DNA of 64,000 nucleotides from Apostichopus japonicus. Lineage: Eukaryota > Echinodermata > Holothuroidea > Aspidochirotida > Stichopodidae. This document shows positions 24,810 through 53,859 of this stretch, piece after piece. Position 1 is the first letter of the stretch. Each line of letters starts with the position of its first letter. The stretch is taken from NCBI RefSeq assembly GCF_037975245.1, contig NC_092566.1:16896001-16960000 (forward strand), written 5' to 3'. The position numbers and the translations under genes are program-made. Below the pieces are notes generated by a model. It made no database searches, was not told where the DNA came from, and was given only the letters and a program-made list of their open reading frames with translations.

Positions 24810-24904
24810 CTAGGCTCTATTAAACGTCGCTATGAAGGTACGGATTTGCATAGCTGACAGCATGACATCGTAAGAGGGTGCTACGACTGGAGGAGGGCTA
24901 AATT
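24810..24904 (-). CDS. MAN2B1: mannosidase exon 23 (C terminus)
   Basis: Acceptor CCCTATAG after a long pyrimidine tract; stop TAG at 24812-24810. Encodes FSPPPVV... and [14 protein letters not shown] (human EPMEIRTFLASVQW). Confidence 0.9.
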
Positions 24905-33900: not shown

Positions 33901-36900
33901 GTACTGTCAAAAGTCACCTTGATCACCTTCCAAGAACAAAGAGAAACAGAAAACTAATCAATACAACTTATTAGGTATATCAAAGGTTGATGTATTAATT
34001 CTAGCTACAACTGTTGGTGTTACAATTGGCTTAACCTGTGCTATAGCCAAGTGGATCAAGGCAGTGGCATTTGAAGCAATGAGGCTAAGCAATTAGGTGG
34101 TTTGGGGTTCAATTCCCAGCCGGGTTATATAGTAAAGTGGGTTTTTCATCCAAGAGCAATCTATGGTTTCCATATCTGAAATTCCCATCTAAATTGAAAA
34201 AGATTCCAAATTTGAGTTAAAATGTTGAGCTGGGAGCCATCTGACATAAAAAGTTGTAATCCATCATCAATTGCGGGCTTCTCCCACATTCGTGGTAGCT
34301 TATTAAACGTCCTAAACATAACTGCCTGCCTGTCTGATTGCATACCAGTAGTAACGGTCTAAATTTGATCGTAACACTATGATACAAGGCACACATGCAC
34401 TATAAGGCACAACACTACACTACACTACACAACACATTGAACACAACACAACACAAGGCACAACAAAACACACAACAATGCACAACACTACACAACACAC
34501 TACACAAGGCACAACACTACACAAGGCATAACACTACACAACACAAGGCACAACACTACCCAACACAAGGCACAACACTACATAACATACTACAAGGCAC
34601 AACACTACCCAACACACTACAAGGCACAACACTACACAAGGCACAACACTACCCAACACACTACAAGGCACAACACTACACAAGGCACAACACTACACAA
34701 CACAAGGCACAACACTACATAACATACTACAAGGCACAACACTACCCAACACACTACAAGGCACAACACTACACAAGGCACAACACTACCCAACACACTA
34801 CAAGGCACAACACTACACAACACACTACACAAGGCACAACACTACACAAGGCACAACACTACATAACACTACAAGGCACAACACTACACAACACAAGGCA
34901 CAACACTACATAACACACTACAAGGCACAACACTACACAAGGCATAACACTACACAAGGCACAACACTACCCAACACAAGGCACAACACTACACAACACA
35001 AGGCACAACACTACCCAACACACTACAAGGCACAACACTACACAAGGCACAACACTACACAAGGCACAACACTACCCAACACAAGGCACAACACTACATA
35101 ACATACTACAAGGCACAACACTACCCAACACACTACAAGGCACAACACTACACAAGGCACAACACTACCCAACACACTACAAGGCACAACACTACACAAC
35201 ACAAGGCACAACACTACCCAACACACTACAAGGCACAACACTACACAAGGCACAACACTAAACAACACTACACAAGGCACAACACTACCCAACACAAGGC
35301 ACAACACTACATAACATACTACAAGGCACAACACTACCCAACACACTACAAGGCACAACACTACACAAGGCACAACACTACCCAACACACTACAAGGCAC
35401 AACACTACCCAACACACTACAAGGCACAACACTACACAAGGCACAACACTACCCAACACACTACAAGGCACAACACTACATAACATACTACAAGGCACAA
35501 CACTACACAAGGCACAACACTATATAACACTACAAGGCACAACACTACACAACACAAGGCACAACACTACACAAGGCACAACACTACCCAACACACTACA
35601 AGGCACAACACTACACAACACAAGGCACAACACTACATAACACACTACAAGGCACAACACTACACAAGGCATAACACTACACAAGGCACAACACTACCCA
35701 ACACAAGGCACAACACTACACAACACAAGGCACAACACTACCCAACACACTACAAGGCACAACACTACACAAGGCACAACACTACACAAGGCACAACACT
35801 ACCCAACACAAGGCACAACACTACATAACATACTACAAGGCACAACACTACCCAACACACTACAAGGCACAACACTACACAAGGCACAACACTACCCAAC
35901 ACACTACAAGGCACAACACTACACAACACAAGGCACAACACTACCCAACACACTACAAGGCACAACACTACACAAGGCACAACACTAAACAACACTACAC
36001 AAGGCACAACACTACCCAACACAAGGCACAACACTACATAACATACTACAAGGCACAACACTACCCAACACACTACAAGGCACAACACTACACAAGGCAC
36101 AACACTACCCAACACACTACAAGGCACAACACTACCCAACACACTACAAGGCACAACACTACACAAGGCACAACACTACCCAACACACTACAAGGCACAA
36201 CACTACATAACATACTACAAGGCACAACACTACACAAGGCACAACACTATATAACACTACAAGGCACAACACTACACAACACAAGGCACAACACTACACA
36301 AGGCACAACACTACCCAACACACTACAAGGCACAACACTACACAACACAAGGCACAACACAACACACTACAAGGCATAACACTTCACAACACAAGGCACA
36401 ACACTACATAACATACTACAAGGCACAACACTACACAACACACTACAAGGCACAACACTACACAAGGCACAACAATACACAACACAACACTACTTAACAC
36501 ACTACAAGGCATAACACTACACACTACAAGGCACAACACTACACAACACACTGCAAGGCACAACACTACACAACACAACACACTAAAAGGCACAAGGCAT
36601 ACAAGGCACATCCCTTATAGTAATAATAGGCCGAGAAGGTACCAGCATATCTGAATACAATTGAAATTTGTTTCTTTAATGCTGTGTGTAGTAGTCAAAT
36701 ATCTAAGTCAGCATTATTGGCACCATTTAAAATTTGAAAAGCAACAGTTCTATGTCACTTCGTTCGACTAAGACAGAAATAAATAACTGACCAATCAAAC
36801 AAGAGATATATTTCTAAAATAGAAAAACAATGAAGCATTTCAGATTGGAATGGAACGTTGTAGTCATATTCAAAATGGTAAAAATTTTGCTCCAATCTTA

Positions 36901-39900
36901 GTACCAGAAAAGTGTTCCATATAATTTTTATCTTCTTCCTCTGTTTATTTATTTATCAATTACATTTATCTATTTTCTACTTTAAGGCATTCCCAGTCTC
37001 TTGCATCCACACTACACACACAGAACACAGACAGCATTCTAGACTCTAAACCCACAAGATGATTCCTTCCTGCTCCTGAAATACAAATAATATATAATAT
37101 ATTCGCTATTTAATAAGCTATAAATTGCTGTCAGAACTAGAGGACACCTACATCAGTGGAAATGACTGTATCTGAATCTGCCGGTGCTGGAACAGCTTTG
37201 ACGTTATTGCTTAGTGCTTGAGGTCTGACGCGCTTCAGAGCTGGAGGTGAAAGAATGGAAAAAGATAGATATATTATAATGTATACTGCTTTCTACATAT
37301 ATCTCGGAAAAGTCTTGTCTGAGGACTTACATGGATTGTGCTATAAAAATCTAAGTCTATTCCTCTCCTATGAGTGTTCTTTAAATACCTTACTAATCTA
37401 TGTGATAAAGTAAGGTGGCCTGGCGTTTTGATCCTAGCAGGATCTTCTTCAGAGGCTAAAACAAAAATAAGGCCTTTGAAGAAGATCCTGCTAGGATCAA
37501 AACGTCAGGCCAACTTACTTTTACACATTCTCAGGCTCTCTAGTGGATAAGCATGTTTGATAACAGTTTTATTTTATTTTGACCTTACTAATCTATTCCA
37601 TTTTTTATCTACTATGTAGCTTTGTGAAGCATGATTTGAGAATGGAACCATCTACATACTTGACAGATTCACAGGGGGGTGATCCGAGGTGGTTCCCCCT
37701 CTCTACCTTCCCGTGCCCAACACTCCCTTCGACACTTTGATATGGAATTATTCAACATAATTTTGATAATTACATGAATATAGTGGATAGAATTCTACCA
37801 TGTATGCTACACACGCATTTCTAAATGTCTACCGCTGTTTTTCTTCTGACAAAGCTATTTCGGTATTAATTTTGGTATCTACTGAGTTGCCACTTGGGAT
37901 CCAACCACTCCACCCCTCTCCCCTCCTCACCCCACCCCTCCCACCTCCCCTCAAACTGATGAGCTGCAACTGATTCAAATATAATAGTTAATGTTGTACA
38001 GGCAACACAAAACTTGGAACTAAAGCTAAGAGGATTCTATCAGATATGAAAAAACAAATATTTTGGTGTTAGTATCTCTAAGTAGGTACAAAATGAGAAC
38101 TGTATTACTTTTCAGAAATAAACATACCTTGTTTAGCAGAAGTTACTTGATAAGTTGCAAACCCCAAAGCAGGGACATGGGCAAAGAAGAAGAGATCATT
38201 CTTAGCAGAGCCCCTGTCTCTTCTTACTCTTTGAACAGCATCAGATACAGCTTGAACCTACGTCGGAGGAGAAAAAAAACCCAACAGACGTCATCATCAT
38301 CGTCAAAAATTCGCATATTCAAAACATACATACATACTAACACGCATATTAGACACTTATATAGCGCTGCTACATTGAGATCATAGCGCTTTGACAACTT
38401 AGCCTTGGTCATTGGTAACTTGTCACACCTACACACCAAAGTGTGCACAATTCAATCAATCTTTCCTGGGGCACCACAGTGCACCACAACCACATGTCCC
38501 CCGGGGGACTTCCCATAGGGTGCAGCCACAAACCGGCGCACGCAACTATATTTACAAGTAACCTCGCAAGTCCCTATTTATACACCTGAGTGAAGAGAGG
38601 CAATGGAGATAAAGTGCCTTGCCCAAGGACATAACGCAATGATCTGGCCAGGGCTCGAACCTGTAATCCTTAGATCACAAGTCCACTGCCTTAACCACTT
38701 GACCACAACCCCCCCTGACAATACATCGTTACAGCAATCACCATCAGGGTTAAGGGTCCGGCAGTTCATTCCAACAACACAGTAGTAGACTTTTTAATAT
38801 AAATCTAAAGATCTGGTTTAAGAATCCCTATTAAAGTAAACTGCCGAGATCTGCTTCTGTGCTATTATTTTCTAGATTTTTTTTTCGAGGTAGATATTAA
38901 AACAAAACGAAAAAAAGAAGTAAGATACCTGATTAGTGACTGAAGATCCATCCGGCCCGGCCACATGATAGCTGGCTCCATTGACAGGAATCTTAACGTA
39001 GGTCGACACATTCCGTCCAATGGGGTTATACAAAATCACAGCGAACTGCAAAAGGAATGATGTAAGGCTTTCAAATAAATTGCAAATGTTTAAATCATTC
39101 TCTTCCTAATATGAATGTGAAAGGCTTTTGCAAAGGTGTTTATAGCTATGATGGATAATGATGATGATGATCTGAATTATTTTGCAAAAATTGGATGCAA
39201 GTAGCACCAACATAATAGCCCTCCCCTCTCCTCCACCATCTACTACTGCAGTGAATGGGAGGGAATGAAACATTTGTAACACTTACACTACCGATTTCAG
39301 GGGGGAACAACTATCCTGAATATGGGCAGCGGAGAGAGGATGAGGTTTGACTTCAAGGAAAGGCAAGAGGGTAGAACAATGTGAGCAACATGATGGCAAA
39401 TCTATTAGGAACAGACTACACCCTCTGTTGAAAAAGACATAAGTGTCCAGAATAGGGAAAATGGTCTTTAAAAACAACACAACACAACACAGCACATCCG
39501 TTCTTTTTTTTCTCTTCTTATTTTAACAGAGATCTGATAGTTAAGAATGCAATCCCCATCCACCAAAAAGATGACGTTCTCTTACCGAATCGGCATTCTC
39601 CGTTGCAGGACACATACTGATGTTAAGATAGTTACAGAACTGGGTCTTTGGTCCTTCGGTGCTTGAGTTCTTAGCCATCAACTGACCGACAGCGAGTCCG
39701 ACCAGTTTCTACGATCCAAACAGTACACAGAAATGACAAAATATGCCACCTTCTAAGTCTGATGCAAAATCCAATTCACTATAAACAAAGACTAAAATTT
39801 AACGTTTCAAAAGCTGAAAAAGTCCCTTTAAAACAATCTATACTCAAAGAATTTGGCATGATTTCCGTACCTTACTTAAGTTCTTTATTACTGCAAATTT

Positions 39901-42900
39901 ACAGCAAATATAATTGCCCTGCTCTCAAAAGTCTGTACAGTAACTGAAGTGTGTTTTTATTCAGGGAAATGCCAGCAAGAACTTGAGTTTAGCCAGACCT
40001 TCTTGATTTAAGAACTGGCATTGGTTTAGCTAGTGATTGAAAATGTGAAATTTTAGGTCATAATGATGATGATCATACTAATAATAGAAATACTAACAAT
40101 AGTAATACTAATAATAATAATAATAATAATAGTAGTAGTAGTAGTAGTAATAATAATGATAATAATAATATTACTCATAATATTATTACCAGGGTGACAC
40201 ATTATTTACGGCATTATTTTGAGTAATACTTTGGTGGATTCACTTAAACATTTGTGAGAAAATTCAAAAAGTTACTTTTCAGACTTTACCTGACATTTCT
40301 CATTGCCGATATGAAGTCTCTTTGTGTAGTCATCATTCACGTGCTGCTTGGCTGTGCCACTGATGAGGAATGAAAGAGGAGGTAAAAATAAATATAAAAA
40401 TAAAAATGAGAGTCAAATAACTCTCTCTTGCATTTCAACGGAAGGTGCTGTCATATAGCTCTTTAATGTGCACAATCTGTACTGTTAGGGGTTAAAAATA
40501 TCTGCATCTACGTGTTAACACGATTGCCTGGAAGCGCTCACAGGCAAGCGAGCATGCAGTGTGAACAAGTTTACAGACATACAGACTAGCTGAGTGATTG
40601 ACTAGTTCAAGGTTCCACTGCAGTGCAGCCTCGCCGAACGAAGACACATGTTTTAGAGAAAGTTACACAAGTTGACGTCACAAAAATAAGTAGGTTGGCA
40701 TGCAACCTTTGGAGGCATGCTTCAATAGATCTGTTCTTTCATAAGTAAGAATGTATTTTGTATGTTCTACTAGTTATCATGGTGATACTAGCATGGTGCT
40801 GCCATGCTAATATAGGTGTCACAGCTCGTCAAGTTTTGCCCAATCAGATATGACAGGACCCAATGTTTTGCCTACCATTGGAGAGCCCTACTTTAATACG
40901 GAGCATAACAAAACCAAACTGGATCAATACTTAGACAAAGATATAATTAAACTGAGGCACGAAAGCATATTTTAGCTACGAATGGTAAAAACACAACATT
41001 TGAAAAGAAGGAAGGTGGACATATTTCCACATCTGAAGGAAGAATGTACTGAATGTACAAAAGACAATTCAAAGAAGCTAAGGGTGCAATATGATTACCT
41101 ATTGAACAGAAGCTGTAGGCAAGAAACCTGAGCTCACCCCTCATCCCCCCAAAAAGGGAAGGGGAGGGCAAAGCCTCCCCCCGACACCTTCCCCAGGCCA
41201 CAAAATCCTCCACTGGGGGGTTGCCAAGAAGATGAAGGTCAAAATTAGGGTCACCAAACACAAAAGTTTGAGTACCGGGGGTTCTAAAAGTTATGAGCTT
41301 TTGTAAAGTTCTCTTGTTTTAGTGTTAAAAGACTTACGTGATAGAGTCATGGTGCTGACTGACACCCATATACTCCTCTGAAAGTAAAACAAATAGAGAA
41401 TTATTATATAGAGAATTATTATACAAAATAGAGAATTAAAAAATCACTTCTTGACAAGTGTTTTTCAAAAGCAGTAGCCTGTCGGGCTATTTTGTCCTAA
41501 GATTGTGGCAGCCCGATAACATATTGAGAAGCCTGTAACATTTTGTTAACATTGTTGTATCTTTGTTGGCTTTGGGTTAAGAACTGAAATTTTATCACCA
41601 AAGATGCAAATCAAATCTCTTCAGATATGAAACATCTGTTGTGACATGAAACACTACAACCAGAAAAAACAATAATAACAACAAGAAAACAACAATTACA
41701 ACAACAATAAAAACGCAGCTTTTTATAATGCTTTGAAATTCTGTAAAACAAAAATCAGCCATTCAAAGAATGACAATAGACTGACAATAGAGTGTCATGA
41801 CAATAGAGTGACATCACAATAGAATGACATGACAATAGCCAAATGACAATAGAAAGAATGAAAATAGAAAGAATGAGAATAAGAGGATAGACTCACTAAG
41901 AGTTTCTACTTCAGCTTCTGGATCTTTACTACTCTGGCTTCCAGCTAATACCTCCAACTGTTTGCAAACCTAATTCGAACAGACCAGCAATCATTTTAAA
42001 ACAATAAAATATAAAAGCAATACAATGATACAGACAAATGGCTGTCTGTATAAATTCAAATAATGCAAATTGGTTGTAATTTGTCTCTCCAGTCAATGAC
42101 TGTAATACATTTCACTGCTAACTTTGTTGCGGCCTATTAAACAGGCTTGGTCAAGGTAGAATTGCTACAAAATATTGCAGGTCTAGGGCAAACAGTTAAT
42201 AAACAAAATTGTCTTCATGAAATAAGCAACTAATCTCAAAATTATATTACAAGCTATTTAGTTTTAGTTTATTTTTCTATGTATTCTCTATTGCTTAAAA
42301 CGATATTCCATATATTTGGACAAAATCAAATATGAGCTTAAATGTTTGGTTTGATAGCCAAAGCAACTTAAACACAGGTACATTGTGTTTTATCAACAGA
42401 ACTCAAGATGTTTCAATCAAAGTGATGGTTTTAACACTTATAGACAAATGACCAAATAGAACTTGACACTATGAAACATAAAGCTTGCCAAGCTAGAAGC
42501 TTTATCGGCATGCAATATTTTTCTTACCTGTAAGAGGTTATTAGATCTTCTTTCATTGCCCTTGAATGCGACACGGCTGACGAAGTATCCCGACCAATCA
42601 GAATGCGGGGAATCAGCATACGGGAAGAAATCCTGCTCCTTGGTGGTCCAGGTCTTGTTGGCTTTATTCAGGTTGTAAGTGTAACAGGATGGCGTAGAGT
42701 AAAGTGTGTAAATATTTGTATCTCTTTCCTAAAAAAGAGCAAGATTTGAAAATGATTGATAGATTTATTTTTGATTGGATCCCACCGTTTAGCCTATTAT
42801 AGTGCTTTAATCAATCACTTTTCCACAGTATCTTTCCTTTAAAGGGAATTGCTGTTCTATCAAGATAGTCCTTGAAAAACCATTTGCGTGGGATCAAAAC

Positions 42901-45900
42901 ACTGAGATACATTTGACAGTGAAACCAAGGGGAATGGGTGGCCGAGCATATTGGCAGAACAAGCCTTGAGCCACGACACAATTAAATCAACAACAGCTTA
43001 CCTTTGCATTTACATATTTCATCAGCTTGTCGAGGTTCTTGTACCAGGCGTTTGCATTCTCATATTGGAAGTCTGACCCCATGGTCAACATGATATGGTT
43101 GGTCTGGAATGCTAGAGACTGAAGGGTCACCCACTTGACGAACGCATCCACACGCTCGTCCACATTGTAATCAAACAGATTTTTGTCGTCCTAGATGATA
43201 ATAAAAAATATATCTATAAATTACTGGTTTATTGATATCATTGGAAATGGGTTGCATAATACATTAAAAGAGTTAGTGAGCAAATGTACCTTTTCGATTC
43301 ACAAGCTAACATACAGTGCCGTTGTATCATAATATGACAATGAAAATCCACAACGACCTGGGGCTGGCTGCAGCATCCTGCAGCCAGGCTGCATAAGATG
43401 AAATTTTCCACACAATAGGCACTACAATTCAACACAATAGTTTCTATTGTTCTGCAGTAATAAATTCTATTGTTTGATATTGATGCAGCCTGGCTGCAAG
43501 GCATAAGGTGAAATATTTCACACAATCTACAATTCAAGACTTGACATTGGAGGACATAACCTGTACTATCTGATATTGATTCAGGCAGGCAGGGGAATTT
43601 GCAAGCAACTGCTGCATCTTTCCAATTTTACACAGTGATGTTATTAATGATGTTGTCTTTATTATGGTACAATAGTATTGTGTGATACAGTCTGAATCAG
43701 AGGGTAGATATGTTTATGAAAAGATCAGAACGCCTACAATAGAAGATATCTGAAAAACAATGCCAAATAATTTCCAAGTCTAATTAGTACATTTTGATCG
43801 ACAACTTCTAGTTGGGTTCGGTTAGCAGTGACAAGTCATTAAGTGATAATCTATTAACCTACGTATACATTATTATCAAAGTGACTGTGTAAGTTCCAGA
43901 GCTGCTGACGATATATATCCCAATAAATCGTCACCGCATTTTTTTAGGTTTATTCACTCAAAACCTTTCGGAGAATCAAATCTACATTTGCCAGTAGGGA
44001 CTGCATTCTGGATAGAGGTAAAATAAACCTCCTTTAAGAAAAGTCTGATATAAGATGGTGTCAAAAGAAGGAGGTATTTCTTAAATATTGCATGATAACT
44101 GGTCTAAGCATATCATTAACATTTACACATATTCACGCTTATTTGTACTGTAATAAAATATTATTAATCAAATAGTTAAGGCAATATTTCTGGCAGACAT
44201 TAAACATCATAATAATGAAATATTCATCACCTTACTTTGCATGACATCATTTTTTTTTTGTAAAGTTAAAATCATGTCAAATAATGTTTTCATTTTAATT
44301 TCAGTTAATTTTTTCCCATTGAACCTGATATATTCCCTTAAAGCAGCTTTTCGACCTTTGTCTTCCAAATGTCCAAACTGATCGTAAATTAACTGATAAT
44401 AATCACTTTTTAGGGGTCTAAAACATGTCAAGATTGATTTTGTGCTGAAAGTCATCTTTTGCACTAAATATATTACATTTTCATTTCGTAGATTCCTTTA
44501 AATTTTCACATCAGCACAACAGAGCCAATCATGATCATCATCGTCTATCCCTATTGGTCACTCATCTCTATGACAATATTACCTGTATGGGAGGATCGTC
44601 ACATCCCCTATCAAAACAAAAGCCAGTCGGGGGTGTGTAAAGATTACCAAACAGGGCACCAAAGAATAAGTCGGCGGGTCGACCCAGGTTGGGGTCTCCT
44701 CTCCATATCGCCTCCATCCTCTTGTCTGACTTTCTGGCCCTTCGATCGTCCTCGTCGATACGGGCAAAGTAAAATCCGTCAAAACCCATCTACAAATTTT
44801 ATAGTGTCAAAGCATGGTTCTTAGTTTTCACTATTTGTTTCCACTTTTCAAAATGTCGCCACCACCTGTTTCCGGTGCCCTTGTCTGTTTATCACACCAA
44901 TGACACCCATGTTTCAAGATCCTGTGACCCTCTCACAGCACACAAGTTCTTTGACCTATATCAAATAACCCATGGATGGAGACACTAGGCAAACACTTGG
45001 CTCTGTGTTTTGTAAACTTGCAGGAGAGACTTACCTGTACCGCATTTGATTCTTACGGTTCCTAAACTTTTTACCCTTTCCATCCATCGATGCCTTTACT
45101 CCAGAAAGTTTGCCTCGCAAGGAAAGATTAAACTCCAGAGACGGTCGCTTCGTCGAGGCATTATTCCCGGGGGGTTAATTAACACCGGTTAGTAGGCACC
45201 GAACCAAAACTTACCGAAATGGGGGGATCATTGCATTTGACGTCATAACAGAAGGATAGAGGCGGTGCATATTGAAGGAAAAGCAGACCAGAGAAAATAT
45301 CTGCATCTTTGCCTAACGATGGGTTGGCTCGCCAGACGATCTCTTGTCGTCTCTCTGCAATACGGATGCCTCGATTGAGGTAGGATATCCTACCGTACAG
45401 AAAGCCGTCGAAAGCCATCTGAGGGTTTATCGACAGAGGAAGCAAAGGACAGCAGAGAGAGAAAAGGAGTTTAAGGGAACATTAGTTTAGCAAGTTAAGA
45501 TGTCTAGGAAGGAGGCTCTACCTGGAAGGGGGTGTCACTGCAGCGTTGATCAAAGCAGAAACTGGAGGGTGGTCCGTAGCCATTGTACAGAACCCCAGCA
45601 AATATATCACCACTACTGCCTATTGAGGGACTGGCATGCCAAACCATCTCTAGTGTCTTGTCGGCTTTACGGACTTTGCGATTCACGTCTGTGATTCAGC
45701 CGAAAAAGAAGCCCTGAAAGCTCATCTGCGCCGCCGCGTTGTTAATTGACAGACGAGCGGAGAAGAAAGAAACATTTTAATAAATTTTCAAAGAAAGGTG
45801 GATATCGAAGAAAGCATATATATGCTACCTCGATTGGAGTGTCTGAACAACCACGGTCAAAGCAAAACCCTGATGGCGGGCCGTAGCCGGAGAAGAGAGT

Positions 45901-48900
45901 GCCTGAAAAGAGACTAGCGTCAGCACCGATGGATGGGTTGGCATGCCAGACGTATTGCATGCGTTTTTCTACGACGCGGAGGTCTTTGTTCAGGTAGCTG
46001 ATCCGACCATAGTAAAACCCATCAAATGCCATCTGCAAGCAGGACAAGCCAGCGGGTTAGTGTTCGTTAAAAAAGGTTTACACAAATTGTGTCTAGATGA
46101 GCTACTGATTGCAGAGCGGTAAGAGGTGTGTACTTTGCTGGAATTCTGTAGGTGGTTTACGCTGACTGGGACGATGTGACAGTGAACACAGACAGACAGA
46201 CGTACAGAGAGACGTACAGACAGGACAGGAAGTTACCAGGAATTGACAGAAGGCTTAATATGTGAGAAGCGCAAGTAACCTACCTTTCCTTGCATCTACA
46301 TGGCAAGCTGCGATACGCTGACACTGTCAAACAGGTCGACTTTTACCAGCGAATAATGCCGGCAGATGACCTGGGATTATGGCTGGTGAGCTTTGGCTCC
46401 AGGTAAAATGTTAGAGAATTACACACACACACACAAACATATATATATATTAAGCATGATTTGTACAGTATGTAGCATGTACCTGTATGGGTGAATCGTT
46501 GCAAATTTGATCGAAGCAGAAATGAGGTGGCGGATCATAATGCTGATACAAAACACCCGTCATCATGTCGGCCTTGCTACCCAAAGATGGATCGCCCTTC
46601 CAAATCATTTCCATTGATTTTTGCTCATGCCGCACATCCCTGTTATATGCACTGATTCGAGCAAAGTAAAAACCATCAAAACCCATCTGTAGGTAGAATG
46701 ATCAACAGGCCCAGAGTCAACCTACATAGCTAACTTCGCAACTTCAGCCATACACTCAAGGTCCCCCCCCCCCCCCCTTCATACCTGTGTACTCTTTGCA
46801 ATATTAGCTTTCATGTATGACAACAAGATCTGATTATTTCAAAGAGATATTTAAGCCCCTTGGAGTATATATTTAGTATAAATGAGCTGGTTTTGTTTTA
46901 CTGTTTAGCCATCCTAGCAACCATCTCTGGAATTGGCTTTTTGCATATCCAATTCCCACTTAATTGTTGCTAAATACTCAGTAGTCTACCTAACAATGAA
47001 AACAGTTCACAGGCCGCAGAAACCCCCCAAAAAATAGAACAGGAGCCAAGTTTGATGCTTAGCCAATAGCCACCCCATCTCCTCCCCCTTCTCCCCAACA
47101 GATAATTAATGACAACAGCCGAACACTTTTCCTTTAAATTTGCCCTTCATCATGTAAAAACTTTTATTTTACAGGGCTGGCTTGTGAGTGTCATGTAATG
47201 AATACATTCAATGAAAGGTGTGATAACCAGACAAAAGCAACTTGAAACACAGATGGCTGAAAACAAGTCATTACTTCAGTACTTAAATGGATCATACATC
47301 TGAAACTTAAATACATAGATAATTATGTCTAGCAGGAATACCAAATACATCCACAAATCATTTCCTTAAATTGATTCTGTTTGTACAACAGAAACATAAA
47401 ACTATGAGAGACATATGGGGTTTTTTTTCTTCTTTTTTTCCCCCTTTCTTTAAAAAACAATTAAGATATATGTTGGTGACCTCGTCTATCCAACAAATTA
47501 ATTATTTTTAATGTAACATACTGTTATAAAAATGGAAGACAGGAAATATTAAAGTTTTCTTGGAAACAAATTTACAAGGAAAGATCAGAACGTAAACATT
47601 ACGTTGAGAACAGTCTCATAATTTTCACAAATTTCAGAACTCTTTTGAAAAGAATTTTGAATTCAGATTTCAACTGCATATGAAATGATACTTTTGGTGT
47701 GGGACTGTGGGTATGACATATTTATTACGGTACTGTAAGCAACAGTAAATTTTCCTGTCAAACAAAGTTTTTTTTTCTCTTATTTCCTATAAATTTAGAT
47801 TGTAGGGCTTTTATTTCCTTCACAACAACAGCTGTTTCGATATCCGCTAAAAATTGAAAATTTGGAATTTTTAGTGGACAATAAAAGTTTGCATTTTCCA
47901 ATTTTGAAGAAATTCTAAGATAATGGTGTATTTTCCATTGGGTGGTCTGACAAACAATACTTTAATGACTGACAAAGTGTTTTGATTGAATGCTGAAATA
48001 TGAATGCATTGTCCTGATGTGTACAGTAAATTCAATGACAAGCTGGAATGACCTGGAACAGTTCTATCAAAACAGCATTTATTCATTCATATTTCTTAAA
48101 ATTCCAAATTGATATTATATATATATGTATATATGTAAATATGTCAAGCACTATAAGTTCATAAAACAAATTATTGAAGGAAAATGGCAATTTGGGGGTT
48201 TATATTGTCCACAGAACCTATAGATACAATGAAAGCCATAAAGGCTTGAATTCTCTTTTGGCACACCGAAAAGTTTTGAAATTCTTAAAAAATTGCCAAC
48301 AAAATCATTAAATATATTACTTTTTCCTGGAAAGTTGGAATAGACTACACAAGTTTTGCCAAAATACATTCAAATGAGCTCATTATGGCTTTCAATTATC
48401 ACAAAGAGCACTTTTTGGTCAGTTGAAAAATGTCCATTTTTGGAATTAAAAAGTCACTGAAGATCAACTGATGACAGCATTGTCAGGGAATTGGTTTGAC
48501 AGAACAACTTTAATCTGATCAGAAAATAAACTCACCTGAGCAAAGAGGGAGGCCTGCTCACGAGAATGCCCAAAGGGGTCGATATGCCATGCGATTTTAG
48601 GGATACCACATTTCCCGAAAGTGTCTTTCAGGAAGCGATGTCCCAAGGTCATTTGATCAATGATGGAGCTGTAGTGGGTGCATGCTTCATCGTTCATGCT
48701 CCAGCCACCATTTATAAATTCAAGACGACCTTTAAAGTGACAAAAACGTAAAGAAATTAGCCAGCGAGAAATGGAATGAGGATTGAGTTACATCAGATGA
48801 CAGTCACCTTTAAAATATTAATGTTTGATGTAAATGGGGCATTCCGAGGCAAATTTAGGCTTTATATTGGATGTACAGGAGTACATGGAAAGTTGTGCCA

Positions 48901-51900
48901 ACAATTACTTTTAAGTTTTTGTCTTGGGTAGCAAGGGGGGGGGGGGAGGAGGTGGTACAACCCTTGGATCATGAACCTGCGTTAAAGTTGAAAGTTTCAT
49001 TACAAATTATTGTTGTTGTTTAGAAAATATTAAAATAAACAATACTAGGGCTCTGTGTACAAATACCTACATATACCTTTGCATAAATTTGTGTAAATTA
49101 ATGTTCGCATTTTGCAGAGTTTTGTTGCTCTCTCTGTAGTTACCTAATTTATTTCTCTGCATTCTAGGAAATGACAGTTAGTATATAAGCCGACAGTACT
49201 GTATGGATCCATTTGTGTATACATATTTAGACAATCTTCCGAACCGTCCATGATTCAGATGTTTAGTAAGAATATATATAATAAAACCAAAATACTGTAT
49301 GGATCCAGACATTGACATTCGATGAAATTACCAATGATTGTGAAATCCAAACATTCTGCGTTCAGTTTTTGTTTCTATGGTTTAAAGGTTATAGAAATAA
49401 ATATTCAACAATGTCTTTCTTTTCTGATATTTTTCTTTTGGTGATTTGACAAATTCATGATCTAGAGCATAAGTCAGTCACTCACAATACAGTTCTGTAT
49501 CAATACGAGAATCAATCATTTATTTTACTAAATGATTTACTCTTAAAGTTTCTGTAAATCAACAGTCAAACCAATCTTCTCTAGAACCGATAATTGATCT
49601 CATTTTATTTTTTTCTAAACAGAATAAAAAAAGACTTAGAATCTGTCACTCTTTCTTTCTGTGAATTGTTTGTTGTTCTCACCTTCATTGACATAACCTG
49701 TGACCTTTTCTTTGGTAGCATCGTTCTGTTCTCGCCACCACCTCTCAAAGAAGGCCATCTCCACGTAGATGAATCGCCTCTTGGGATCCTTGTCTAACTC
49801 TGATACCACTGAGTCGATGATATACTGCACTCCAGCATGCTGAATACTATTATTGGCTTTATCAAGGACAGAAAAAAACAACATCAAACTCAATTGGTTA
49901 TTTTACTGCATCCAGTGACAAATCTTCTATCATTCAGTGAATGTCCACAGGGGTAGGTATCTCTCCCATGAAGCCACCATTGGGAAAATTTTACCTTTAT
50001 ATTCATCTTTGTAATATTTGAATGTTACCTCATACAGCGTTGTTATGGAAAGACAAACAGATGAATTATCAAATGATACAGTATAAATTCCTGATTTTCA
50101 TTTATTTCAGTCAAGGCTTTGCCTCATACTGTATGTTAGCTATTGAATTTTCTGTTCGAGGTCAATATTATTGTTCACTTGGTAGAATTTTTTTATAATT
50201 TGTGCAGGAAAAAAAGGAAATTGTTTGCATTGCCATTATTATACCTCAAATGAGGATAATACAGGACAGTGCAGTTAGCAGTATGTTATCTCTCACACTA
50301 CAGTACTGTACTCAAATAATAACATCCAACCACTCCCCTGTTAAAGTATACTGCAACTCCCCTTTAATAATTCAATACTTGCTGAAACCAGCTTCTGTGA
50401 ATCAACTCGTATGGTATAAAATGCAAATATCAGTATCAAACAAACAGTCAAAAGTACGTTCAAAGATGGGTTTATTTTTAAATGCTTAATTATACACTGG
50501 GTCAATATGTTTTTTCTAGTCAACAGGGTAAAGTTAAAACAAACATGTTAAATAATTTCAAAGTTCAATTTCAAGATAACAGAGCTCAAATGCTGGCCTG
50601 GATTTCAGTATACCCTGGGGGTGAGAATGAAGTACACTTTCCACATAGGCAATTAAGAACTTGAATTAAGCAATATGTGTTGTGATATACATTAAAGCAT
50701 AGTTTTCTGTCGCTAAATTCTCTTCAAGTTTTCCCGTCAGAAAGCAAAATTTTGACAGGTTTCATTGCTATTTCTTAAATATTTTATTATACAGCACTTG
50801 TCTATTGGCAAATGTTGTACTTTAATAAACTTGAGCAGTTCCATCGATATCCAAAAAGGAAAAAAAAAACTAATATCAGTGTGGTAAACAAATAACAGAT
50901 TCCTACAGTAACATCTATAGCAACTTTAAGGTCACTTTTTTGAAATTTATTTTCAGCATGAATGCCAAATGCTCATTAAGTATTGTTGTTGATGTTTTTT
51001 GTTTTGTAGATGTTGTCTCTCTCATTACAGACAACACCAAGCCAACTATAACTGTTAACTTCAAAGAATGCATTTTGAGGAAATGACAAATTCCGGTGTT
51101 ATTGTTGACAACAGCAACTGCAAGTACAAAGCAAAAAATGTTGGGCATCATAATTTTGAAATCTGATTCTGGATCGATGCTCTGTGAGAAAACTTATGAT
51201 TTAAATTGCTCCATCAATCCTTACAAATTCCAATCAACAGGAAATACATCAGGAAATACAACAGGAAATACAACAGGAAATACAGGAAAACTGCAACATG
51301 AGTACATGACCATGACATGTTTTGGAACTACTGTAAATGTAGACTTGCAACTTATAACATTTTGCTGACCAATCACTATTGAAAATGTAGTGCAATAACT
51401 GAGCCACAAACCTCCATAGAAATATTGATCAACTGTCTTGAGCCATCCAACATCATCATGAGTATGTGGTACAATATGAACATTCAACCTGTCAGGTTTG
51501 GTGGGGTTGCAGGACTGTACGGAATATGAAAAGATATAAAGAAAGATATTCAATGCATGTATAATTGAATGTACTTGATAATTTAATACTTGCTTAGAGC
51601 TCAAATCTTTTCAAAAGCATCAACTTTATTACGTTATCTTTTAAAACTTAATGTACCCATGATTATCTTCAATAAACTGATAATTCACAATGGTTAATGG
51701 GTCAGTGGCCCTGCATGCTTATCACAGGATTAGCCTCTTCAAGAACTTGTGGCAAGAAGGCAGAGCCAATCATCACATACAGTATTGCAACAATATTCCA
51801 GTTGCATTGTAATGATAAACTAATTTGAGGGGTACGTCGGGTGGGGGGGGGGGGGGTTGGGAGTGAGAAGGATGATCAATGGGACACTGTCCAATGCCAA

Positions 51901-52258
51901 CATTTTGGCAAGGTTGTGGCGTAAAAATGTTGCTGACCACTGCTACTGGCAGCTTTTAATTCAAGTCTAGGGGCCTAGTCGTGGGCATTCTAGAAGTAGC
52001 ACTAGGACTGGAGTGTAGGAGTACGACTACAGCCTAGCCTAACTTTAGTTTTACAGTGTAGATGTACGTAGGCCTCTGGCAAACTTAGGCAATAGTCGAT
52101 TGCGGAATACATAACATAGAGTAGATTAGGCCTAATTAAGTCCTAGGCCTTAGGGAAATCAATCGTGAGCTAACTTGGTATCCACAGTCACAGTACGCTG
52201 CAGGCAAATATACGACAGCCAAACAAGCAAGAATGATAAAACGACAACAGTGCTCCAT
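24810..52258 (-). CDS. MAN2B1: Lysosomal alpha-mannosidase (GH38), complete, with five alternative exon-5 cassettes
   Basis: Removes alpha-linked mannose from glycoprotein oligosaccharides in the lysosome; a Zn-dependent retaining glycosidase. Minus-strand exons: 52258-52175, 51514-51412, 49856-49683, 48729-48536, one of five cassettes (46686-46483, 46032-45829, 45725-45522, 45418-45215, 44789-44583), 43190-43002, 42728-42528, 41969-41897, 41377-41338, 40359-40290, 39708-39586, 39045-38929, 38257-38128, 37240-37152, 33926-33693, 32610-32492, 31518-31417, 30283-30196, 29411-29331, 28768-28541, 26907-26758, 25470-25353, 24904-24810. All phases agree and with one 68-codon cassette the product is 1001 aa (human enzyme 1011). 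Visible landmarks: N-terminal signal peptide, zinc motif PHTHDDVGW (H47, D49), nucleophile motif WHIDPFGHS (D171), [50 protein letters not shown], and C-terminal IRTF. Paralogous Golgi GH38 enzymes lack these lysosomal-type motifs. Confidence 0.95.
25353..25470 (-). CDS. MAN2B1: mannosidase exon 22
   Basis: Acceptor CATGCAG, donor GTGAGT. Encodes [20 protein letters not shown] and [13 protein letters not shown] (human LFSTFTITRLQETTLVANQ...RLKWTTNTGPTP). Confidence 0.93.
25794..26240. repeat. 74/72-bp tandem repeat, about six copies
   Basis: Units start CAGTGATCATG(T/C)ATGGCAG at about 25794, 25868, 25942, 26014, 26087 and 26159 and share ACATATGTAGACTACAGTCA and ACACTGTCACGTATATGAT. TGTATGG and TGCATGG units differ by loss of two bases, implying a dimeric higher-order unit. 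Lies in mannosidase intron 21. Confidence 0.92.
26758..26907 (-). CDS. MAN2B1: mannosidase exon 21
   Basis: Acceptor TCCCAG, donor GTGAAC, 50 codons. Encodes [20 protein letters not shown] and RLEHMFE (human LPPSVHLLTLASWG...LRLEHQF). A short exon before it is possible but not needed. Confidence 0.9.
28541..28768 (-). CDS. MAN2B1: mannosidase exon 20
   Basis: Acceptor CCCCAG, donor GTACGT, 76 codons. Encodes [19 protein letters not shown]... (human VHRRLLKDDGRGVSEPLME). Confidence 0.94.
28911..29140 (+). mobile_element. tRNA-derived SINE, near full length
   Basis: tRNA-like head with A box (TTAGCTCAGTGG) and B box (GGTTCGAGTC), then a body with ATTAATGTATGTCGTCCAGT, CAGAGTTGTTGACAATTGAC, GCTTGCGGCTTTGATAAGCC and TTCCTGCTTGCAGGAGGA, ending in ACATACATATATACA. 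Related bodies at 60955-61108 (+) and 61690-61789 (-). In mannosidase intron 19, opposite strand to the gene. Confidence 0.82.
29331..29411 (-). CDS. MAN2B1: mannosidase exon 19
   Basis: Acceptor TTTTTAG, donor GTAAGT. Encodes [20 protein letters not shown] (human [20 protein letters not shown]). Confidence 0.94.
30196..30283 (-). CDS. MAN2B1: mannosidase exon 18
   Basis: Acceptor CTTTCAG, donor GTAATT. Encodes [19 protein letters not shown] (human [17 protein letters not shown]). Confidence 0.94.
31417..31518 (-). CDS. MAN2B1: mannosidase exon 17
   Basis: Acceptor TCTTCAG, donor GTAAGA. Encodes [15 protein letters not shown] and [14 protein letters not shown] (human GKEVISRFDT...[13 protein letters not shown]). 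Confidence 0.94.
31751..32190 (-). mobile_element. 5'-truncated LINE fragment (reverse-transcriptase C-terminal part)
   Basis: Frame reading [42 protein letters not shown] and [13 protein letters not shown], typical of the region after the RT palm in non-LTR elements of the CR1/Jockey-like type seen in marine invertebrates. Inserted in mannosidase intron 16, same strand as the gene. Ends before an A-run on its 3' side. Not a host exon. Confidence 0.85.
32492..32610 (-). CDS. MAN2B1: mannosidase exon 16
   Basis: Acceptor TTTTCAG, donor GTGAGT. Encodes [12 protein letters not shown]...QIVRLY and [12 protein letters not shown] (human LELEWSVGPIPV). Confidence 0.93.
33503..33571 (+). mobile_element. 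degenerate tRNA-like sequence (SINE head or tRNA relic)
   Basis: Termini GGGTAG and CTACCC pair as an acceptor stem; A-box-like TAGTCCAGTTGG is good, the anticodon loop would read TGT, but the B box (TTTCAAATTCA) is degraded. Unlikely to be a functional tRNA gene. Confidence 0.5.
33693..33926 (-). CDS. MAN2B1: mannosidase exon 15
   Basis: Acceptor TTGGAAG, donor GTAGAC, 78 codons. Encodes [35 protein letters not shown] and AYIFRPNSS, very close to human. Confidence 0.93.
34037..34200 (+). mobile_element. tRNA-derived SINE (leucine-like head)
   Basis: A-box-like TATAGCCAAGTGG, long variable arm with GAGGCTAAGCAATTAGG, B box GGTTCAATTCC, then GTGGGTTTTTCATCCAAGAG and AGCAATCTATGG. Shares these in order with 9808-9917 on the opposite strand. 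In mannosidase intron 14. Confidence 0.68.
34395..36610. repeat. 2.2-kb GGCACAACACTAC tandem array with 727-bp internal duplication
   Basis: Built of short modules ACAAGGCACAACACTAC plus ACAACAC, CCAACACACTAC and ATAACATACTAC spacers. Region about 34903-35629 recurs at 35630-36356 with exact 727-bp offset over the parts compared. Fills much of the large intron 14 of the mannosidase. All open frames through it are repeat artefacts. Confidence 0.95.
37152..37240 (-). CDS. MAN2B1: mannosidase exon 14
   Basis: Acceptor CCTCCAG, donor GTAGGT. Pro-rich linker ending DTVISTD, which joins [12 protein letters not shown] of the next exon to match human LTIENEHIRATFD. Confidence 0.82.
37408..37521. repeat. 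~114-bp hairpin / foldback element
   Basis: AAAGTAAGGTGGCCTGGCGT and GATCCTAGCAGGATCTTCTTC reappear inverted as GAAGAAGATCCTGCTAGGATC and AGGCCAACTTACTTT around a short loop. In a mannosidase intron, 170 bp upstream of exon 14 on the gene strand. Confidence 0.75.
38128..38257 (-). CDS. MAN2B1: mannosidase exon 13
   Basis: Acceptor GACGTAG, donor GTATGT. Encodes ...[17 protein letters not shown] (human LLFSASLPALGFSTYSV). Ends in phase 1. Confidence 0.92.
38390..38725 (-). mobile_element. tRNA-derived SINE with conserved central domain
   Basis: Minus-strand head GGTCAAGTGGTTAAGGCAGTG...GGTTCGAGCCCTGGCC (A and B boxes, serine-like), then the complement of AAGTGCCTTGCCCAAGGACA, a core that recurs in SINEs of many marine animals (it resembles the Meta-domain type, from memory). 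Body continues to about 38390. Lies in mannosidase intron 12. Confidence 0.7.
38929..39045 (-). CDS. MAN2B1: mannosidase exon 12
   Basis: Acceptor TTTGCAG, donor GTATCT, 39 codons. Encodes [20 protein letters not shown] (human [20 protein letters not shown]). Confidence 0.93.
39586..39708 (-). CDS. MAN2B1: mannosidase exon 11
   Basis: Acceptor ATCGTAG, donor GTAAGA, 41 codons. Ends [12 protein letters not shown], matching human FCQQLNISICP. Confidence 0.92.
40084..40190. repeat. (AAT)n/(AGT)n microsatellite
   Basis: Runs of AATA and TAGTAG units in mannosidase intron 10. Confidence 0.85.
40290..40359 (-). CDS. MAN2B1: mannosidase exon 10
   Basis: Acceptor CATCAG, donor GTAAAG. Encodes [15 protein letters not shown] (human GTSRQHVANDYARQL). 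Confidence 0.92.
41338..41377 (-). CDS. MAN2B1: mannosidase exon 9 (QHHD motif)
   Basis: 40-bp exon, acceptor CTTTCAG, donor GTAAGT. Encodes [12 protein letters not shown]; the second His corresponds to zinc ligand H446 of the bovine enzyme. Phase 1 in, phase 2 out fits both neighbours. Confidence 0.9.
41897..41969 (-). CDS. MAN2B1: mannosidase exon 8
   Basis: Acceptor GAATTAG, donor GTGAGT, 24 codons plus one base. Encodes [12 protein letters not shown] (human VCNQLEALVG). Confidence 0.9.
42528..42728 (-). CDS. MAN2B1: mannosidase exon 7
   Basis: Acceptor TTTTTAG, donor GTAAGA. Encodes [30 protein letters not shown] and WSGYFVSR, all hallmark GH38 lysosomal motifs. Confidence 0.95.
43002..43190 (-). 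CDS. MAN2B1: mannosidase exon 6, constant exon after the cassettes
   Basis: Acceptor CATCTAG, donor GTAAGC, 63 codons, phase 0 to 0. Encodes [18 protein letters not shown], then [18 protein letters not shown]; the GSDF Asp is a conserved active-site residue of the family. Confidence 0.95.
43380..43536. repeat. direct repeat pair with palindromic heads in the intron after the cassettes
   Basis: 43380-43431 and 43484-43536 share GCAGCC(A/T)GGCTGC, CATAAG(A/G)TGAAAT, TT(T/C)CACACAAT and CTACAATTCAA. Each head is a 13-bp palindrome; ACAATAGTTTCTATTGT between them is another. Position between cassette E and constant exon 6. Confidence 0.7.
44583..44789 (-). CDS. MAN2B1: mannosidase exon 5, cassette E
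   Basis: Acceptor TTTGTAG, donor GTAATA, 69 codons (one extra residue before the Tyr), phase 0 to 0. Starts [11 protein letters not shown] exactly as cassette A, then diverges (DEDDRRARK); Tyr-Thr at 51-52, FCFDRGC. Confidence 0.93.
45215..45418 (-). CDS. MAN2B1: mannosidase exon 5, cassette D
   Basis: Acceptor CCCTCAG, consensus donor GTAAGT, 68 codons, phase 0 to 0. Starts [15 protein letters not shown]; Arg at 10, Trp at 29, Tyr-Ala at 50-51, FCYDVKC. Closest to cassette B. Confidence 0.93.
45522..45725 (-). pseudogene. MAN2B1: mannosidase exon 5, cassette C, interrupted by TGA
   Basis: 68 codons aligned without gaps to cassettes A, B and D, and phase 0 to 0 with AG/GT borders, but codon 10 is TGA (45698-45696) where the other four have Arg. 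The rest is intact ([32 protein letters not shown]). Its acceptor has a weak pyrimidine tract (GCGGCGGCGCAG). A single CpG transition CGA to TGA explains the stop. Either a recently dead cassette or a poison exon that would trigger decay of the transcript. Confidence 0.85.
45829..46032 (-). CDS. MAN2B1: mannosidase exon 5, cassette B
   Basis: Acceptor CTTGCAG, donor GTAGCA, 68 codons, phase 0 to 0. Starts [15 protein letters not shown]; Arg at 10, Trp at 29, Tyr-Gly at 50-51, FCFDRGC. 103-nt intron to cassette C. Confidence 0.93.
46483..46686 (-). CDS. MAN2B1: mannosidase exon 5, cassette A
   Basis: Acceptor CCTACAG, donor GTACAT, 68 codons, phase 0 to 0. Starts [11 protein letters not shown], with the conserved Arg at position 10, Trp at 29, Tyr-Asp at 50-51 and the FCFDQIC disulphide pair. 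Tyr-Asp equals the Golgi enzyme pattern rather than the vertebrate lysosomal Tyr-Asn. Confidence 0.93.
48536..48729 (-). CDS. MAN2B1: mannosidase exon 4 (catalytic nucleophile), constant exon before the cassettes
   Basis: Acceptor TTTAAAG, donor GTGAGT, ends phase 0. Encodes [25 protein letters not shown] and [15 protein letters not shown]; the Asp of HIDPFGHS is the GH38 nucleophile (residue 171 here). Confidence 0.95.
49683..49856 (-). CDS. MAN2B1: mannosidase exon 3
   Basis: Acceptor ATAAAG, donor GTGAGA. Encodes [35 protein letters not shown] and KVTGYVNEG, near-identical in pattern to the human enzyme. Confidence 0.95.
51239..51286. repeat. 12-bp minisatellite (AGGAAATACA-AC), four copies
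   Basis: Short array of GGAAATACAACA units in the intron 5 of... exon 2's downstream side, i.e. between mannosidase exons 2 and 3. The open frame across it is not an exon. Confidence 0.75.
51412..51514 (-). CDS. MAN2B1: mannosidase exon 2 (zinc-binding motif)
   Basis: Acceptor GTACAG, donor GTTTGT. Encodes [20 protein letters not shown] and QYFYG. The second His and second Asp of HTHDD are zinc ligands in GH38 structures. Confidence 0.95.
52175..52258 (-). CDS. MAN2B1: mannosidase exon 1 (start codon and signal peptide)
   Basis: ATG at 52258-52256, donor GTTAGC, 28 codons. Encodes a basic-then-hydrophobic signal ([16 protein letters not shown]) ending CGYQ, the counterpart of 'GYETC' at the mature N terminus of the human enzyme. 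Start chosen because it gives a signal peptide and joins in phase 0. Confidence 0.85.
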
Positions 52259-53859
52259 TTTGCCCGTCCAGCTCATCAATAAGAGTTTAAGGAAGTTTTC
52301 ACGATACGGCGCCTATCCAGCTCAGAGTTATCGTTGCACAGACTGTAAGCCAACTGTAAATTGGCAATTGTCTCGGATATTGCGTTACGTGTGAAGTGGC
52401 TGACAGTCTTTCTACGTAAATTCATGTGACGCGAAATCACATGGTAACTTTTTTTAGCGGAAGATTGTATACATGTGATGGCCGACCGAATGTTCTAGGA
52501 TTTGGTCACATATTTTAATTTCCAGTCTTCGTTTTCTGGCAAAATTTGACATGCTTTTACAGCACATGAGTTCTGAAGTGTAAGGTAGTCTTGGTCCACA
52601 TTTTATTTCAGATTGTTCAGGTGTAAAATTATTCATTATTCTTCACAGTCTTCTCGCTTTGACACTTGATCGGTTTTCTGACGTTCAACTCTTAATGCCT
52701 GTATTACACTACAGTACGTATCCAGCATATGCCATGTACTAGTACTAAAGACTAAGTACTTAGCCTAAGTCAAGGCTGGACCCATAACGTAGGCATATAT
52801 GACAGTAGGCGTATCACTTTATCAGTGTCACTTATCAATATCAGTCAGTGTTGTCAGTCTAGCCTGGACTTGGCTTATTCTAACATTTACTAGTTTGGCC
52901 TACCCCATATTACATGCCGATACACCTAGAGAAATTGTTCCATGTCACCATTGTAATGCACTGCCCTTAGGCTACTACTTTTCTATCAGAATGAAAAGTA
53001 AACATTGCAGTGATCTCATTATTAATCTTTGAAGGAAATCATTCATATGAAATGTTTTCCCAAAATGTTTGACCTTATGTTAAGAAACATCTCCATTGCT
53101 TTTGAAGTTGAGTAGATTTGTTGGAGGAAAGAAAGTAACGATACCCTGCATGAGACAACAATCACATTAACTTTCCGAATCTATTAAATGCTTACTAAAC
53201 ATGTCTGGTGGCTTCAGGATAAATGTGATATTTACATGTTAGTTGTTACAGTGCAGCCTGTTCAGTTTCTGTTATACTATCCATACACTTTTCCATGTTA
53301 AATTTAAAATGTTACAGTGGTAAAAGTGCCTTAGGGCCTACTCAATTTAGCTGCATAGTCTGCAGTTTTGACCAAATTTTGACAGTCGAACAACATTTTG
53401 GACAATTTGAGGATGACAAGCAATTGTGTCCGTGGTACAGTAGCTAGTTACGGTATTCAAAGATAGAATTGTTATAAAAGCAGATAAGTTCAAGGTACAG
53501 TAGGCCTTACTTAGGTACTCGTTTTGTACGTTCTAAGGTTGAGCAATGTGACGTCTCCACAATGTAAATGTGCTTGGCAGGAGAGACAACATAAGATTTA
53601 TAATCACATTAAGTAGCCAGTTTCATACGGTTGAGGCAATCTGTCTTCCGGTAAAATAGTCACTATTATATTCATTTTCTCAAAGTTTGGTCAAGTACAT
53701 CTTCATGAGATTTTGTTTTCATTCACTAAGTACTATTTTTCTTTACCATTCCAGACCTTGTTTCTAAGATTCAAGTTTTTATCGTGCATCATCATCCTAA
53801 CTGCTTCTAGAGTCCTTACCAGAATTTTGTAGTTATTTATTTGCTATTTGGATTCAAGG
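52259..53859. promoter_or_regulatory. divergent intergenic region (mannosidase and R-SNARE start codons back to back)
   Basis: About 1.6 kb between two start codons that face away from each other, so both promoters and 5' UTRs should lie here. No convincing TATA box or other motif is claimed. The mannosidase ATG is preceded on its strand by GAGCTGGACGGGCAAA. The SNARE ATG is preceded by an intron-like or 5' UTR stretch. Confidence 0.5.

Follow-up and report, generated by a model that had tools for sequence, protein, structure and literature searches.

A sea cucumber lysosomal alpha-mannosidase gene with five tandem versions of one substrate-pocket exon, probably used one at a time

Can an animal exchange one wall of an enzyme's substrate pocket by choosing among tandem copies of a single exon? 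The question is raised by a gene for a lysosomal alpha-mannosidase of glycoside hydrolase family 38 (GH38) in the sea cucumber Apostichopus japonicus, which we analysed within a 64,000-nucleotide window of contig NC_092566.1 (positions 16,896,001 to 16,960,000 of assembly GCF_037975245.1; all positions below count from the first letter of this window). Between constant exons 4 and 6 the gene contains five diverged copies of one exon, here called cassettes c1 to c5 in the order of transcription. Four of them are open, and we consider it likely, from the sequences compared below, that splicing is mutually exclusive, with one cassette per messenger RNA (mRNA), giving several enzymes that would be distinguished by one side of the pocket.

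The gene and its exon array

By its sequence, the locus is one gene for a full-length MAN2B1-type GH38 enzyme. The NCBI protein model P0001 (lysosomal alpha-mannosidase-like isoform X3, A. japonicus) is placed on the minus strand with 1000 of its 1002 residues, the other two falling at exon joints, and spans 27 kb (Table 1). Five Pfam domains are listed for P0001, which matches MAN2B1-type proteins over its full length and in domain order; the top solved chain for the gene product, by sequence, is the bovine enzyme (1o7d_A). The nucleophile motif lies in exon 4, and both this motif and the contact residues are those of MAN2B1-type GH38 enzymes, the arginine of c3 excepted.

Each cassette aligns with the family from end to end, and all five have an AG just before them and a GT just after. 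All are phase 0-0, so that the frame is kept from the end of exon 4 (48536) to the start of exon 6 (43190). From exon 4 to exon 6 the introns measure, in order, 1849, 450, 103, 103, 425 and 1392 nt. Protein identity among the cassettes is 47-60% (six equal-length pairs). An earlier, sequence-only reading of the window had claimed five collinear exon copies between exons 4 and 6 that are not assembly duplicates; the borders, the phase and the lengths of 204, 204, 204, 204 and 207 bp on the minus strand bear out the first claim, and the divergence in protein the second. Its count of five usable versions, however, has to be lowered to four: in silico joins to exons 4 and 6 are open for c1, c2, c4 and c5, while c3 is interrupted by an in-frame TGA. 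As tandem homologous exons of similar length and the same phase, each with splice borders, the copies have the make-up of a mutually exclusive exon cluster. When c4 was used as a query against the whole genome, only the five array copies were returned (all five of the best candidates scored, E up to 10); a nucleotide repeat search with a minimum length of 40 found no family, leaving the cassette copies undetected.

Table 1. Features of the alpha-mannosidase gene within the window
Feature	Position	Strand	Basis
Lysosomal alpha-mannosidase (MAN2B1-type, GH38) coding region	24813..52276	-	P0001 placed in 23 exact blocks
Constant exon 4, carries nucleophile motif	48536..48729	-	sequence, bovine alignment, in silico joins
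Intron 4, 1849 nt, with 15-G run at 46777-46763	46687..48535	-	sequence
Cassette c1, 204 bp, open, D at Asn262 position	46483..46686	-	relative P0182 73.5% identical
Cassette c2, 204 bp, open, G at Asn262 position	45829..46032	-	near-identical open reading frame P0157 98.5%
Intron c2/c3, 103 nt, AG-free zone 97 nt	45726..45828	-	sequence
Cassette c3, 204 bp, in-frame TGA 45698-45696, pyrimidine-poor acceptor	45522..45725	-	sequence, in silico joins
Intron c3/c4, 103 nt, AG-free zone 83 nt, branch-point candidates 27 and 40 nt from c3 donor	45419..45521	-	
Cassette c4, 204 bp, open, A at Asn262 position, in NCBI model isoform X3	45215..45418	-	
Cassette c5, 207 bp, open, with one extra residue and T at Asn262 position, most outgroup-like copy	44583..44789	-	
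Constant exon 6	43002..43190	-	in silico joins, P0001 blocks

The cassette corresponds to about bovine residues 211-279 (numbered from Asp196 on the 1o7d_A alignment) and includes bovine Arg220 and Asn262, the equivalents of fly Arg228 and Asp270, which agrees with the earlier placement of this segment after the GH38 nucleophile and at the substrate pocket. According to a 2026 review (PMC13204073), bovine Arg220, which corresponds to Arg228 of the fly Golgi enzyme, is a key contact, fly Tyr269 hydrogen-bonds mannose, and the fly pair Asp270-Asp340, which is Asn262-Ser318 in the lysosomal enzyme, is a non-conserved site exploited for selectivity. For comparison we used 118 outgroup proteins (the best 120 of 4240 listed family proteins minus P0001 and P0002). 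The Arg site, the Tyr site and both Cys sites are occupied by these residues in 118 of 118 relatives and in every open cassette; c1, c2, c4 and c5 have R at the Arg site, where c3 has a stop, and the Tyr (bovine Tyr261 site) is present in all five, c5 carrying its extra residue immediately before it. The Asn262 site, read from c1 to c5, is D, G, G, A, T. On these residues, cassette isoforms with a changed substrate preference are plausible.

The c4 form was modelled by AlphaFold2 as an intact GH38 fold, with a mean predicted local distance difference test (pLDDT) of 84.9 and a predicted template modelling score (pTM) of 0.88; the cassette blocks score 73-90, and values are low at 54-76 and 136-142. 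Template modelling (TM) scores of the model are 0.87/0.93 against jack bean GH38 and 0.92 against bovine 1o7d_A, on that chain.

Age and origin of the copies

Synonymous distance is saturated or uncomputable in all ten cassette pairs, with nonsynonymous distances (dN) of 0.38-0.52, and the copies differ mostly at third codon positions: between c1 and c3, for example, 23, 15 and 48 differences fall at positions 1, 2 and 3 over 67 codons. Because synonymous sites are saturated and changes are mainly third-position ones, c3 included, the sequences indicate that the likeness of the copies is beyond chance, that they are old and that they have long been held by selection on protein.

A search for relatives, in which the comparison covers the best 120 of 279 matches, is consistent with this age. 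P0182, 73.5% identical to c1, shares its length, borders and derived residues; c5 has relatives in P0190 (87.0%) and P0002 (85.5%). Near-identical open reading frames (ORFs) were found in independent contigs for c2 (P0157, 98.5%) and c5 (P0173, 98.6%). Judged by identity, these five are probably sea cucumber sequences. For c3, no relative was found among the best 120 of 279 matches or in the search with c2, c3 and c4; the same searches missed c4 outside P0001. A protein search limited to c2, c3 and c4 returned two of three candidates and no additional sea cucumber cassette. Since relatives of c1 (74%) and of c5 (87%) exist in other data, at least c1 and c5 appear to be old and to have been kept apart.

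A tree built on 69 columns places c1 with P0182 (99/99), c5 with P0190, P0002 and P0173 (96/96), and c2, c3 and c4 together (92/86); 9 of its 20 inner branches are open and the deeper forks are weak. The outgroup proteins are informative where the tree alone is insufficient. Their best-matching cassette is c5 in 78 cases, c2 in 19, c1 in 15, c4 in 4 and c3 in 2. Cassette site 12 is Asp in 114 of the 118 and site 15 is Asp in all 118; both are Asp in c5, P0190 and P0002, whereas c1, c2, c3, c4 and P0182 have Ser or Thr at the first and Asn at the second. Because of these best matches and the residues at sites 12 and 15, the comparison points to c5 as resembling the ancestral copy and to a single founder for c1-c4. 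Each of the crinoids compared (P0009, P0014) shows two lysosomal alpha-mannosidase proteins, one with an extra residue at the loop where c5 has its own.

The TGA of c3 is codon 10 and falls on the invariant Arg (bovine Arg220; Arg in 118 of 118 relatives compared), for which c1, c2, c4 and c5 use CGA, CGG, AGG and CGT. There is no frameshift and no second stop in the 204 bp of c3. These features suggest either a young lesion or a copy retained for another purpose. An mRNA in which c3 was chosen is predicted to have a premature stop, so that c3 may be a recently lost copy or an off-switch. In the latter case it would be a working poison exon that lowers enzyme output through nonsense-mediated decay, a role for which the single stop, the intact frame and a third-position excess like that of the other copies speak, as signs of maintenance until recently or still. 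We regard this role as unlikely nevertheless, given a poor acceptor (pyrimidine share 0.41 at -20..-4), the lack of c3 relatives in the above searches of other data and a single base change for which a recent loss, or a variant carried by the individual that was sequenced, would account just as well.

Cassette use and its exclusivity

Two full-length products bear on how the cassettes are used. P0001 joins exon 4, c4 and exon 6, with c4 alone. P0002, from another species and 78% identical, is a 1002-residue uninterrupted ORF in a 3347-nt contig and has one c5-type cassette; since this ORF is unbroken in 3347 nt while the gene here takes 27 kb, P0002 appears to derive from spliced RNA, and a retrocopy is less likely. 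Both products (two of two) carry one cassette, each a different one, as expected from the proposal of the sequence-only reading that the copies are used alternatively and one at a time; its wider claim, that one gene for a lysosomal alpha-mannosidase contains collinear alternatives for a segment beside the nucleophile, is likewise supported. The label 'isoform X3' presupposes three or more predicted isoforms, whose differences may or may not lie in the cassettes. In body wall with skin ulceration, a transcript named 'lysosomal alpha-mannosidase-like' increased by 2.3-2.6 log2 units in one sequencing set and by 9.5-10.1 in the other (PMC4906609, Table 4); probes located in different cassettes might account for this discrepancy.

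We propose that the array arose in the sea cucumber lineage by duplication of a c5-like exon, and that c1-c4 then changed jointly at sites 12 and 15, which are otherwise nearly fixed, and independently at the Asn262 site. In each mRNA, splicing would place a single cassette between the two constant exons, and the resulting isoforms would differ in glycan preference or pH behaviour.

What could keep the cassettes apart? Reading frame does not, as had been argued earlier: the frame is retained in all ten two-cassette joins and in the skip of all cassettes, and stops arise only in the four joins that contain c3, so that double inclusion would neither shift the frame nor expose the mRNA to decay unless c3 took part. 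Mixing of U2 and U12 splice sites was looked for in the cassette donors (GTACAT, GTAGCA, GTAGAG, GTAAGT and GTAATA), none of which resembles the U12 donor consensus. No other intron of the gene comes near the 103 nt of c2/c3 and c3/c4, the next shortest having about 273 nt, and the AG-free zones of these two introns are the longest among 13 acceptors (97 and 83 nt; next 76). For c4, the branch-point consensus is matched at distances of 27 and 40 nt to the c3 donor, and for c3 at 48 and 87 nt to the c2 donor. In alpha-tropomyosin, a branch point near the preceding donor prevents the joining of two exons. By analogy, c2/c3 and c3/c4 may be unjoinable, the branch point in each 103-nt intron being too near the preceding donor. 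The gaps between c1 and c2 and between c4 and c5, of more than 400 nt, are too long for such an effect; because introns of 450 and 425 nt permit no steric hindrance, exclusion at these two joints would need another device, namely regulators or RNA structure.

According to one account (PMC6071210), the short-intron device is restricted to two-exon clusters, larger clusters mainly using competing RNA structures. Two scans for docking sites were made. In the first (12 shuffles per intron), the best sum in intron 4 was equalled by 3 of 12 shuffles and the worst-case measure by 0 of 12, both values coming from a run of 15 G; in the last intron the sum was equalled by 8 and the worst-case measure by 5 of 12. 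In the second, which left out G or C runs of at least six and with them the 15-G run as a homopolymer, the best site was equalled by 7 of 40 shuffles in intron 4 and 20 of 40 in the last intron. The 15-G run itself lies about 75 nt upstream of c1 and pairs well with pyrimidine tracts of the inter-cassette introns.

The starts of c2, c3 and c4 follow an exact 307-nt period (45418-46032). The idea that one 103-nt intron was recently copied from the other was rejected, as the two agree at only 35 of 103 positions and 546 of 2000 shuffles do equally well. Given an exact period without residual similarity, a constraint on the length of these introns is possible.

Several observations weigh against mutually exclusive use as proposed here. 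Of the two products, one is an annotated model and the other comes from another species, and c4 and a c5-type cassette are the only versions with mRNA-type evidence; the name 'isoform X3' comes from annotation, and what sets the remaining isoforms apart could lie elsewhere in the gene. Species, too, differ in the residue at the Asn262 site (N in 85, G in 22, S in 4, D in 3, and A, T, Q and Y in one each of the 118 proteins), so that variation of this site among cassettes need not alter specificity, such residues apparently being tolerated in nature. The free tree unites neither c1 with c2-c4 nor all sea cucumber cassettes; a constrained c1-c4 clade (P = 0.317) or a clade of all cassettes (P = 0.423) is not rejected, yet neither is demonstrated. 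The branch points were assigned by consensus alone, c4 has an AG-free zone barely longer than that of exon 4 (76 nt), and the docking-site scans give no support, nothing standing above the shuffles once the 15-G run is excluded.

A simpler history would have only one or two cassettes (c4, c5) in use, with c1, c2 and c3 as decaying relics of tandem duplication. The stop and pyrimidine-poor acceptor of c3, the restriction of mRNA-type evidence to c4 and a c5-type cassette, and the weak donors of c1 (5.4) and c2 (3.4) compared with c4 (8.9) and c5 (6.9; scores against a consensus) would all fit. Yet c1 and c2 retain an open frame and intact borders despite saturated synonymous sites, and the relative of c1 keeps length, borders and derived residues at 73.5% identity, which neutral decay over such a time would not leave; we hold this history to be improbable. 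Similarly doubtful is a far-reaching form of mutually exclusive use, with four alpha-mannosidases of swapped pockets, a ladder of 103-nt introns that bars neighbour joins and c3 as an off-switch, perhaps tuned to diet, microbes or infection.

Alternative but non-exclusive splicing, with some mRNAs containing two or more cassettes in series or skipping the segment, would be compatible with the frame of the ten double joins and of the full skip, and no device covers c1/c2 and c4/c5. We consider it very unlikely: both full-length products have exactly one cassette, and the catalytic domain would probably not survive the doubling or loss of a 68-residue piece that carries the Arg and Tyr for substrate binding. 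An assembly artefact, in which haplotypes or paralogues were collapsed or mis-joined, might explain the single 307-nt period across c2, c3 and c4, but is extremely unlikely: the copies are widely diverged in protein, independent contigs contain ORFs nearly identical to c2 (P0157) and c5 (P0173), and a single gene model spans the locus exactly.

Two further GH38 places were found in the genome, C1 (MAN2C1-like, by eye) and C4 (Golgi MAN2A-like, by eye), and neither has a cassette array within the 9.0 and 9.5 kb inspected. The C1 locus contains a reverse-transcriptase-like ORF (L014 6049-6528, by eye) and a TACTTACTGG-type tandem repeat. Within the introns of the mannosidase gene lie a large minisatellite (34404-36578; units of about 27, 44 and 71 nt) and, on the minus strand at 31754-32260, a 169-residue ORF that by eye resembles the last part of a reverse transcriptase from a retrotransposon. 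A tRNA gene (50 bits) is present on the minus strand at 1812-1884 of the window.

Comparison with known systems

Splicing that rewrites a catalytic site is called rare in a report on COQ-2, the cases named there being simple switches (PMC7434440). No report of the mannosidase array was found by titles and abstract openings, supplements and subscription papers lying outside that search. GH38 is a drug-target family in which selectivity between the lysosomal and Golgi enzymes is sought at the Asp270/Asn262 site (PMC13204073). If the proposal holds, the array would offer naturally varied pockets on the otherwise constant scaffold of a housekeeping lysosomal hydrolase, of direct use for learning GH38 specificity, and would allow one to study how exclusivity is achieved when three or more exons share a frame.

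The lysosomal alpha-mannosidases of other animals (the 118 proteins) have the same segment with its invariant Arg, Tyr and two Cys, but a single version of it per protein record. Exons 2 and 3 of alpha-tropomyosin have a branch point close to the preceding donor and a long AG-free pyrimidine stretch, as the 103-nt introns may have; the analogy fits two of the four cassette joints, by consensus matches alone. The clusters of Dscam, Mhc and MRP (PMC6071210) resemble the array in their tandem homologous exons, of which one is likely used at a time; they differ in their competing RNA structures, which the mannosidase scans did not find, and Dscam has no catalytic pocket. In NALCN, a duplicated exon (15a/15b) swaps a functional filter, echinoderms included, but this is an ion channel with two exons (PMC3557258).

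Parallels also come from other enzymes (PMC7434440). In COQ-2 of helminths, annelids and molluscs, exons 6a and 6e are of equal length, are mutually exclusive and remodel the core of an enzyme; that prenyltransferase has two such exons, with junctions and substrate switch demonstrated, whereas the mannosidase has five, whose use is inferred from sequence. In CYP4F3 (Christmas et al., cited there), splice choice alters the substrate preference of an enzyme, as proposed here, although the choice is tissue-specific, in a P450, and involves no five-member array. By analogy with these pairs, the mannosidase array would extend active-site exon choice to five copies, in a lysosomal glycosidase.

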